The position numbers and the translations under genes are program-made. Source: Candidatus Cloacimonadota bacterium (GTDB taxonomy: Bacteria; Cloacimonadota; Cloacimonadia; Cloacimonadales; Cloacimonadaceae). From it: DNA of 54,039 nucleotides. Location: NCBI GenBank assembly GCA_020532515.1, contig JAJBAY010000004.1, positions 1 to 54,039 of the forward strand, given 5' to 3'. A model generated the notes under the pieces. The model searched no databases. It had not been told where the DNA came from and was given only the letters and a program-made list of their open reading frames with translations. Below, piece by piece: positions 2,346 to 5,258 of the stretch (within the stretch, counting starts at the first letter, position 1; each line of letters opens with the position of its first letter).

Positions 2346-3677
2346 ATGGATCAAGATATTTGGCAAAACATACTGGATAAACTCGAAGAAAATATCAATG
2401 AACAAAGTTTTAAGACCTGGTTTTATGAGACCAGGCTGGTAGATATGTCAGACAGACAGTTACTCATCCGGGTGCCTACTCAATTTAGTGCAAATTATTT
2501 GAATCAAAATTATAAGGAAGTTCTCTCGGAGATCTCCTTCACTCTTTATGCCCGGAAATATGACATCCAGTTCATCACCCATCCTTATAAAGCTGAAAAC
2601 AATAAGGGTGATATTCCGGATTATAGCGAGAAAAAGGTGAGCCTTAATGCCCGGCTGAACGACCGTTACAACTTTGAAGAATTTGTGGTGGGACACAATA
2701 ACAACTTCGCCTACTCCGCAGCCAAAGCGGTGGCGGAAAATCCCGGCTATACTTACAATCCCCTCTTTATCTATGGCGAAAGCGGCATGGGCAAGACGCA
2801 TCTCATGCAGGCGGTGGGCAATTTTGTGCTTAAAGAAGGGCGCAATTGCAGCATCTATTATACCACCAGTGAAGCTTTTACAAATGAGATGATTGAGAGT
2901 ATCCGTGGCAATAAAATGCCGGATTTTAGAGCCAAATTCCGCAAAGTAGATCTGTTGCTGGTGGATGATATCCATTTCCTCTCACGCAAGGAAGGAACTC
3001 AAGAAGAGTTTTTCCATACCTTTAACGCTTTGTTTGACAATAAAAAGCAGATTGTACTGACTTCAGACCGTCCTCCAAAAGACATTCCCGATCTGGAAAA
3101 AAGGCTGGTAACGCGCTTTGAAAGCGGACTTTTGGCAGATTTGAAGAATCCCGATTTTGAGACCCGTGTGGCCATCCTGCGTAAGAAAGCCGAGCCTGAG
3201 AACATCAGCCTTTCCGATGATGTGATCAATTTCATTGCAGACAAGATCAGCTCCTCTGTGCGCGCCCTGGAAGGCTCTCTGATCCGCATTTTGGCCTTCG
3301 CTTCTTACAATAAACTCAATCCCGAAGATATCGATGCTGAGATCGCGCAAAGCATCCTGGCCGATATGATCTCAGAAGTGAGCCGGGAAATCACCCTGGA
3401 TGCCATTACACACCAAGTTTGCCATACTTACCAGCTCAGTACCGAACAGATCATGGACAAGACCCGCAAACCGAACATAGCTTTTCCCAGACAGGTCTCT
3501 ATGTACCTGGCCAACCTCCTCATTCCGTCTTTGTCCCTGAAGGATATCGCCCAATATTACAACCGTAAAGATCATACCACCGTGATCCATGCCAAGCGCA
3601 TGATCGAAAACCAATTCCGGGACGACGACAAATTCCGTTCTCTGATGGAATTCATGATCAAAGAACTGAAAAAGTAG
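2346..3677 (+). CDS. dnaA: Chromosomal replication initiator DnaA
   Basis: The protein is the initiator ATPase that binds DnaA boxes and opens the origin. The 443-residue length is normal. Domain I is at the N-terminus (WQNILDKL...). The AAA+ core has Walker A GESGMGKT (144-151) and Walker B LLLVDDIH (203-210). Domain IV carries the DNA-binding signature KDHTTVIHAK (408-417). I chose the ATG at 2346 because AAAGGA (2333-2338) is 7 nt before it and the product starts MDQDIWQN, as family members do. An in-frame ATG at 2313 has no such site and overlaps a DnaA box. dnaN does not follow; the next 336 bases are origin-like. Confidence 0.97.
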   Translation: MDQDIWQNILDKLEENINEQSFKTWFYETRLVDMSDRQLLIRVPTQFSANYLNQNYKEVLSEISFTLYARKYDIQFITHPYKAENNKGDIPDYSEKKVSLNARLNDRYNFEEFVVGHNNNFAYSAAKAVAENPGYTYNPLFIYGESGMGKTHLMQAVGNFVLKEGRNCSIYYTTSEAFTNEMIESIRGNKMPDFRAKFRKVDLLLVDDIHFLSRKEGTQEEFFHTFNALFDNKKQIVLTSDRPPKDIPDLEKRLVTRFESGLLADLKNPDFETRVAILRKKAEPENISLSDDVINFIADKISSSVRALEGSLIRILAFASYNKLNPEDIDAEIAQSILADMISEVSREITLDAITHQVCHTYQLSTEQIMDKTRKPNIAFPRQVSMYLANLLIPSLSLKDIAQYYNRKDHTTVIHAKRMIENQFRDDDKFRSLMEFMIKELKK

Positions 3678-4013
3678 CAACTACCATGATGAATATATTG
3701 CTGCAACAAAGGGGCTTTAGAAAGCTGATGGATAGCGGATTCAAGCAGGCTTTTTCAGACTTATCCACACGTGTGCATGATTTGCTGTGGATAAGCGTGG
3801 ACAACATGCCAGTAAAAGCTTTAGGGCGTTTTTTGGTGGATAGCTGGTGGATAAACCCTGGTACTTGTGCACAAGTTATCCACACAAACTCGGGGCTCCT
3901 AAAGAACTGCAAAAACTACTATCAAAAGAAAAAGCTTGACCGATTATCTACATATCCACAAAGCCTACTAGAACTACTAAATTACAAAATCTCTTAAAAT
4001 AGGATAAGATTAT
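3678..4013. other. oriC: Probable chromosomal origin (oriC)
   Basis: Perfect DnaA boxes occur at 3761-3769 (TTATCCACA), 3786-3794 (TGTGGATAA) and 3876-3884 (TTATCCACA). Near-boxes occur at 3846-3854 (GGTGGATAA), 3865-3873 (TTGTGCACA), 3944-3952 (TTATCTACA) and 3952-3960 (ATATCCACA). The last two are followed after 4 nt by triplets CTA CTA GAA CTA CTA AAT TAC (3965-3985). On the other strand these read 3'-GAT-GAT-CTT-GAT-GAT, like the DnaA-trio that loads DnaA on single strands in Bacillus-type origins. AT-rich DNA follows to 4013. A 103-codon reading frame across this region is not credible as a gene. Confidence 0.88.
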
Positions 4014-5258
4014 ATGAATATGAAGTTTCAGATCATAGGGCTTTTGCTGGTGCTTATACTGGTGGGAGCTTGTACCAAAAAGAACAATCTTACCGGAACG
4101 AACTGGTCGGATATAAATGCTTTGAGCTTTCAGGACAATGCTGCTGTGGAATCTGGATACAGCTTTCCTGCAGATTCTCTGCTCAGCATCACAAATAACA
4201 AGAAGAATCTCTTGGTAGGAAATTGGGAAGGCTCTACTGCTATGAGCATCCTGCGCTTTACCGGTCTGCCTGAACAAAGTAAAATAGTACCAACAAGCGT
4301 TGACTCTGTAAGACTTCAGATAATCTTGCAAAGAAGAAATGCCTTGCAGCGCGAGCCTTTGACCCTGAATTTTTACAAGGTGAATAGCGGCTGGGCTGTA
4401 AATCCCGATACGCTCAGTGCAGATGATTATAGTCTGATTCCCGGCACAGCCAAATTGGTGCCGTCAGGGATTCTTAGCGGCGATACCTTGACTGTGTCTT
4501 TGCCCTATAGCCTGATCCAGAATTGGCAGGCGGATGCCGATTCCACCGGTTTGAATATCCTGATCAAAGCAGAAAACGCAGGCTTTGTGGAGCTCAAGCT
4601 CAGCACTGCCACTGTGGGCAGCAAGCTTAGCTTCAAATACAAAGAGACACCATCGGATGAAGTGTACAAGGATTTTGAACGCTATGCCAGCTTCAATTCC
4701 TATAGTTTTACTCATCCAGAGGTGGAGCCCAGCCCTGGAATCTGGAAATTGAGCAATTTTGCTCCGCAGCGTATGTATGTGGATTTGCAGCCGCATTTCA
4801 ATATGTTCAAGAACGACGCTGGTGCCACCCTGAGCGAAGAAGAGCTAAAAAGAGTGACTATAAACAAAGCAGAACTGGTGCTTTACATCAAAGACGAGCT
4901 GCCTAATTATAAGAATACCTCCAGCTACAGAGTTTCGGCTTTTCTGCTCAAAGAGCGGCCGGAAGACGGTGCCATCATCCCCACTTTAGATATGCAGACT
5001 CCACAGTTTATCAGCGTCTTGGAGAGTATCGTGAATACATCTTCAGATTCTATCTTGATCAATATCACTCCTATTATCCAGGCCTATATCTCCGAAAAAA
5101 CCTTTTCCGACGACACGGTAGTTACTCCCAAAGGCATTGTGATTATAAGCAATTACGAGCGTAAAGACTTTGGTGAGATCGAGTTTTATCATCCCAGTAC
5201 TGCTCCGGAAGACAAAGAACCTTATATCAGGGTAAAATATACACCCCCATTCTTATGA
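4014..5258 (+). CDS. Lipoprotein of unknown function
   Basis: The 414-residue protein has a lipoprotein signal peptide with lipobox LVGAC (Cys20, or Cys18 from the second ATG at 4020). The mature part reads as two beta-rich sections, about 75-210 and 215-412, each with a VDSVRLQI/INKAELVLYI-like strand. This resembles the DNRLRE/carbohydrate-binding style of repeat found in secreted proteins, but I cannot place it in a named family. The gene starts right after the origin and overlaps the next gene by 4 nt (ATGA), so it is probably co-translated with the PpiC/SurA chaperones downstream. An envelope role is inferred from that context. Confidence 0.8.
   Translation: MNMKFQIIGLLLVLILVGACTKKNNLTGTNWSDINALSFQDNAAVESGYSFPADSLLSITNNKKNLLVGNWEGSTAMSILRFTGLPEQSKIVPTSVDSVRLQIILQRRNALQREPLTLNFYKVNSGWAVNPDTLSADDYSLIPGTAKLVPSGILSGDTLTVSLPYSLIQNWQADADSTGLNILIKAENAGFVELKLSTATVGSKLSFKYKETPSDEVYKDFERYASFNSYSFTHPEVEPSPGIWKLSNFAPQRMYVDLQPHFNMFKNDAGATLSEEELKRVTINKAELVLYIKDELPNYKNTSSYRVSAFLLKERPEDGAIIPTLDMQTPQFISVLESIVNTSSDSILINITPIIQAYISEKTFSDDTVVTPKGIVIISNYERKDFGEIEFYHPSTAPEDKEPYIRVKYTPPFL

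Follow-up and report, generated by a model that had tools for sequence, protein, structure and literature searches.

A probable origin-opening site with a broken third DnaA-trio downstream of dnaA in Cloacimonadota

Results

The dnaA locus and its DnaA boxes

The window analyzed here is a 54,039-nt stretch from a Candidatus Cloacimonadota bacterium whose genome is assembled as 2.33 Mb in 150 contigs. The initiator gene dnaA occupies 2346-3677 on the plus strand; its product has the Pfam domains DnaA_N, Bac_DnaA and Bac_DnaA_C, and by phmmer it aligns along its length with the Bacillus subtilis DnaA in 8btg, a structure of the basal origin unwinding system (BUS). The following open reading frame starts at 4014, is lipoprotein-like and has no Pfam match. 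The intervening 336 bp hold four DnaA boxes, an overlapping box pair, a spacer and a trio tract. The 3’ part of a group II intron was detected at 45-126 (Rfam RF00029, 45.6 bits), by the edge of the contig and 2.2 kb from dnaA.

DnaA boxes with at most one mismatch were found 30 times in the window against 11.7 expected, a count that none of 100 shuffles reached. Clusters of them lie at 2190-2322 and 3761-3960. The upstream cluster consists of minus-strand boxes, TTATCCACA at 2190-2198 (-156 relative to dnaA, with the same position and orientation in relatives), TTATCCACC at 2201-2209 (-145) and TTATCCACA at 2314-2322 (-32). The downstream array begins distally with TTATCCACA on the plus strand at 3761-3769, continues on the minus strand with TTATCCACA at 3786-3794 and TTATCCACC at 3846-3854, and returns to the plus strand with TTATCCACA at 3876-3884. 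Across the phylum, boxes favor certain places and orientations, namely about -179, -155, -145, -105, -77, -66, 0 and +8 relative to position 3944. The first three boxes of the array occupy the conserved places near -179, -155 and -105 (the last on the minus strand), and a counterpart of the fourth is present at -66 to -68 in 70 of 87 loci.

A box pair, a spacer and an interrupted trio tract

Two further boxes lie next to the trios, both on the plus strand and both oriented toward them: TTATCTACA at 3944-3952, whose columns are nearly invariant in the phylum, and ATATCCACA at 3952-3960, which overlaps the first by one base and so gives the pair (3944-3960) an 8-bp period. Each differs from TTATCCACA at one position, where BUS boxes are allowed two. 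The spacer AAGC (3961-3964, plus strand) places trio 1 at 4 bp from box 2, within the 16 bp allowed for a BUS; its length is 4 nt in the ungapped model described below (88 loci), with the consensus nnGC.

Trios 1 and 2 read CTA CTA on the plus strand (3965-3970), which is 3’-GAT-GAT-5’ on the strand to be bound. Trio 1 is CTA in 86 of 87 loci, and trio 2 has the middle T in 76 of 87. The same sequence, CTA CTA, recurs as trios 4 and 5 (3974-3979, plus strand), where the middle T is kept in 79/87 and 85/87 loci, respectively. Between them stands GAA (3971-3973, plus strand), a degenerate third trio whose middle T is found in only 55 of 87 loci; as the trio strand here has a T where an A is required, GAA does not qualify as a DnaA-trio. 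After trio 5 come AAT TAC and then AT-rich DNA that reaches the start codon (4014). The candidate unwinding element at 3975-4015, AT-rich DNA on the 3’ side of the trios as in a BUS, is the fourth least stable 41-bp window of the 54 kb by nearest-neighbor energy.

The initial annotation had named the boxes at 3944-3960, the 4-nt spacer, CTA CTA GAA CTA CTA, AAT TAC and the AT-rich DNA, and every letter and coordinate proved right. Its description of the tract as DnaA-trio-like was accurate for trios 1, 2, 4 and 5, all CTA, but the third triplet breaks the tract, which is not contiguous. The BUS search rule requires at least three contiguous 3’-NAN-5’ trios (PMC8287927). Applied to this region of the window, that rule returned no match: trios 1-2 and 4-5 fit it, and it failed because trio 3 lacks the middle adenine.

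Immediately 5’ of the box pair, TTGACC (3936-3941, within AAGCTTGACCGA) is kept in most of the window species’ family and not in other families; it is perhaps a promoter element or the site of an additional protein.

The block is conserved downstream of dnaA across the phylum

dnaA was found in 107 of 125 genomes of the phylum, from which 91 dnaA loci were collected. Since the three-trio rule gave scattered spurious sites in several of them, we used instead a model fitted to the block itself, an ungapped 38-column description of box pair, spacer and trios. With this phylum-wide model, the block was recovered at fixed spacing 3’ of dnaA in 88/91 loci (19.8-57.5 bits), whereas dinucleotide-shuffled downstream regions yielded at most 3.6 bits. 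Conservation in relatives, which the initial annotation had proposed as a check, is thus found at nearly all of the loci collected.

Because any fit to these loci is bound to recover them, the model was refitted without the window species’ family, on 46 loci outside it. Scanned over both strands of the 54-kb window, this independent model scored 45.1 bits at 3944 and -4.3 bits at the next best place. In the complete chromosome of a relative from the same family (G001; 2,246,820 bp) it found a single match, at 1684, just 3’ of dnaA, with 36.5 bits against 10.1 for the runner-up.

The block is absent 3’ of dnaA at three loci, two from one genus (L065 and L066, in genomes G030 and G031) and L073, where the downstream sequence read was ~1.47 kb, 279 bp and ~580 bp long, respectively. 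L065 and L066 have a common dnaA-downstream sequence without the block, and other species of the genus carry it. The shared sequence makes a rearrangement in this genus likely, and this half of the origin may have moved there.

Trio positions differ in constraint

To see which bases are held, inferred changes were mapped on the DnaA protein tree of the 88 loci. Trio 1 is frozen, with 0/1/0 changes at its three bases; trio 2 has 4/6/5, trio 3 29/19/14, trio 4 11/8/3 and trio 5 1/3/29, and flanking positions mostly have 15-35. The third base of trio 5 and all DNA beyond it are unconstrained, conservation falling to the flank level straight after that trio. The tract therefore comprises five triplets, since a sixth and those beyond resemble the flank. 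The middle adenine of the bound strand is present, after weighting, in 98, 86, 65, 90 and 96% of loci for trios 1 to 5.

Trio 3 is thus nearly free in this phylum, mutating almost like flanking DNA, and all of trios 1-3 fit 3’-NAN-5’ in only 49/88 loci. In B. subtilis the middle base of a trio may be A or C, and G or T is not tolerated (PMC10721633). At trio 3 the middle base is neither A nor C in 23 of the 88 loci, through about 15 inferred changes, compared with two loci each at trios 4 and 5. In the sister class the pattern is CTA TAA ATA CTA CTR, so that trio 2 is broken as well. Judged from this conservation, the protomer lying over trio 3 appears to need no specific base.

DnaA contact residues and a possible co-change

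The B. subtilis DnaA residues reported to bind the trios or their captured bases are Asn187, Ile190, Ile193, Arg202 and Glu228 (PMC10721633). All have identical equivalents in the window DnaA (N180, I183, I186, R195 and E221), as does the arginine finger (R257 for R264), so the protein has the nucleobase-capture residues expected of a BUS initiator. The equivalents of N187, I190, I193, R202, E228 and R264 are kept in nearly all 91 DnaA proteins of the phylum.

In one genus, two of the three species (G046, locus L069, and G048, locus L071) have Ile as the equivalent of Asn187. In G048, trios 2, 4 and 5 read CAA, CAA and CAT, so that the first C is kept and the middle T is replaced by A; this is the sole locus among the 88 in which more than one of trios 1, 2, 4 and 5 is broken. 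Co-change of Asn187 and the trio DNA in G048 is possible, a lead from one genome. The idea that Ile187 alone forces a trio change is ruled out, because G046 and a Eubacterium locus (L223) have Ile at this place and keep CTA trios. Saccharibacteria loci with Ser at the 187 place keep CTA trios as well.

What the weak third trio may mean

One account of trio 3, which we regard as a real contender, is that it is not special: the position would be less constrained everywhere, and a broken triplet here would be drift without mechanistic meaning. The B. subtilis trio 3 is alone in having 3’-AA-5’ rather than 3’-GA-5’, and its replacement had no significant effect (PMC10721633); among the matches listed, a few loci from other phyla likewise have broken third trios (CAA, CAG, TAA and CCA). 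Against this account, where trios 1, 2, 4 and 5 are all CTA, the middle A of trio 3 is kept in 10/23 loci of the Cloacimonadota and in 69/80 outside loci among the matches listed (Fisher P about 8e-5, uncorrected for kinship). We hold a lineage-specific weakness only moderately, because kinship is uncorrected and the outside sample was whatever came first. When trio columns were compiled from 30 dnaA loci each of Acidobacteriota, Clostridia and Gemmatimonadota (assigned by locus titles), the clear blocks numbered 5-11 per column, a small sample for judging trio 3 in those groups.

Another proposal, which we put forward as speculation and consider rather doubtful, is that the DnaA filament of this phylum grips a split tract, with specific contacts at trios 1-2 and 4-5 and a sequence-blind stretch over trio 3 (over trios 2-3 in the sister class), and that the base read is open to rewiring. 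G048 would be an example, with Ile in place of Asn187 and with trios 2, 4 and 5 reading 3’-GTT/GTT/GTA-5’ rather than 3’-GAT-5’.

The region as the probable chromosome origin

We asked whether the locus lies where the chromosome origin is expected. A sample of GC skew from 40 windows of the G001 chromosome was noisy, and its best fit did not outperform permutations; the whole chromosome was then read. Cumulative GC skew reaches its minimum at 2,228,310, on the circle 18.5 kb ahead of dnaA and the trio block, and its maximum nearly opposite, at 1,097,457; for a random site, the probability of lying as near to the minimum is about 1.6%. The skew minimum that the initial annotation had expected at the origin is thus found near the corresponding site of a same-family relative. 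Because the skew of G001 is weak and noisy, this support is good but not overwhelming.

Taking skew, conservation and anatomy together, we consider it very probable, on sequence evidence, that 3761-4015 is the origin-opening site, the unwinding side of oriC, working by the box and trio (BUS) mechanism. The region could be the origin and yet be opened elsewhere, for example at the boxes of 2190-2322, with the CTA tract merely part of an AT-rich flank. Three conserved boxes do lie 5’ of dnaA, and unstable 41-bp windows start at 2224 and 2319, but in 89 loci no second box-spacer-trio block was found 5’ of dnaA (8.0 at best), and the trio columns are constrained like DnaA boxes while the remaining flank is free; we therefore regard opening elsewhere as improbable. 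DnaA also acts as a transcription factor. That the block is instead a DnaA-regulated promoter or leader of the lipoprotein gene starting at 4014, whose start codon lies ~34 nt beyond the block and which in the window species’ family has TTGACC at 3936-3941, is very hard to credit, as other families lose TTGACC and keep box and trios, conservation falls to the flank level right past trio 5, and the same block stands at dnaA in unrelated phyla.

Discussion

A model for opening and helicase loading

For an origin opened at 3761-4015, the order of elements suggests how unwinding would proceed. By homology, DnaA would bind the array at 3761-3884 and the overlapping pair at 3944-3960. The distal boxes, whose places are roughly constant (-66, -77, -105, -145, -155 and -179), would probably deliver more DnaA by looping, as distal boxes do in B. 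subtilis (PMC6669920). From the box pair, a DnaA filament would cross the 4-nt spacer and continue along the bottom strand of 3965-3979; there, protomer after protomer would capture the G and A of the 3’-GAT-5’ triplets and stretch that strand. Trios 1-2 and 4-5 would carry the filament, with a base-unspecific protomer at trio 3, and stretching is predicted, again by homology, to open the adjoining AT-rich DNA at 3975-4015.

The replicative helicase would then be loaded, by analogy with homologous systems probably with DciA, which is present in 12/12 genomes of the genus. A search for loaders of the DnaD/DnaB and DnaC types found none, and it is because no DnaD/DnaB-type protein turned up that DciA is the probable loader. 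IstB matches, considered as candidate helicase loaders, were DnaA itself or, by inference, IS21-type proteins.

Comparison with known origins

The locus closely resembles the incC BUS of B. subtilis (DnaA-boxes 6/7, GC-rich spacer, DnaA-trios). Both lie 3’ of dnaA and have a box pair facing the trios, a 4-nt spacer, 3’-GAT-5’ triplets on the same strand, an AT-rich flank, conserved DnaA contact residues, distal boxes 5’ of the pair and boxes 5’ of dnaA. They differ in that the box pair here overlaps by one base, the tract has five trios rather than six, the third trio is broken in the window species and many relatives, and helicase loading is probably by DciA. In B. subtilis, trios 1-3 are reported to be essential (PMC10721633), whereas the window species does not have three contiguous trios. 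The oriC1-dnaA-oriC2 arrangement of Helicobacter pylori, with its ts boxes and DnaA-trios, is also similar, with boxes flanking dnaA on both sides and trios and an AT-rich region downstream; its boxes follow the consensus TYATTCACN and the trio-proximal ones are topology-sensitive (PMC8235120), while Cloacimonadota boxes follow TTATCCACA.

As only the rule of three contiguous trios fails, the origin is by sequence a BUS variant, and it most likely works like a BUS. The initial annotation had suggested the same opening mechanism in a little-studied phylum; skew and conservation support it, and it is less surprising than was supposed. BUS motifs are predicted for 85% of the 2070 bacterial species surveyed (PMC8287927), which makes a BUS in another phylum an expected finding, and the same paper reports the system in vitro for six further species from several phyla, Gram-positive and Gram-negative. 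We also scanned public genomes with the query box-N4-CTACTANNNCTACTA. Among the matches listed, dnaA was on the same stretch in 65/80 loci, and by their titles the loci belong to Clostridia, Acidobacteria, Poribacteria, Actinomycetota, Spirochaetes and others.

The origin is therefore ordinary in kind, with a modest twist in its third trio. What is new is the broken, nearly free trio 3, together with the G048 locus, in which DnaA has Ile for Asn187 and trios 2, 4 and 5 lack the middle adenine. The open literature searched, which covers few subscription journals, yielded no description of a Cloacimonadota origin; the analysis now gives the phylum a very probable origin-opening site, and its anatomy is unusually uniform (88/91 loci). 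The phylum also provides a natural data set on which trio positions matter, with trio 1 frozen, trios 2, 4 and 5 constrained and trio 3 nearly free, and this bears on how many protomers must grip specific bases for DNA to open. Searches that require three contiguous trios miss real origins like that of the window.

A second cluster of DnaA boxes

In G001, the densest clusters of perfect boxes are the dnaA region and one other place, at 447 kb; trios are found at the dnaA region only. The second cluster (447170-447278 of the chromosome, G001:C1) contains four perfect DnaA boxes, and a counterpart in another genus (L420, G000:C70 20747-20854) has them in identical order and spacing (11, 73 and 15 bp). 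It could be a site of DnaA titration or regulation, comparable to datA, to DARS or to the box clusters of B. subtilis. The cluster is intergenic, directly 5’ of a SpoU-type rRNA methylase gene, and without trios.
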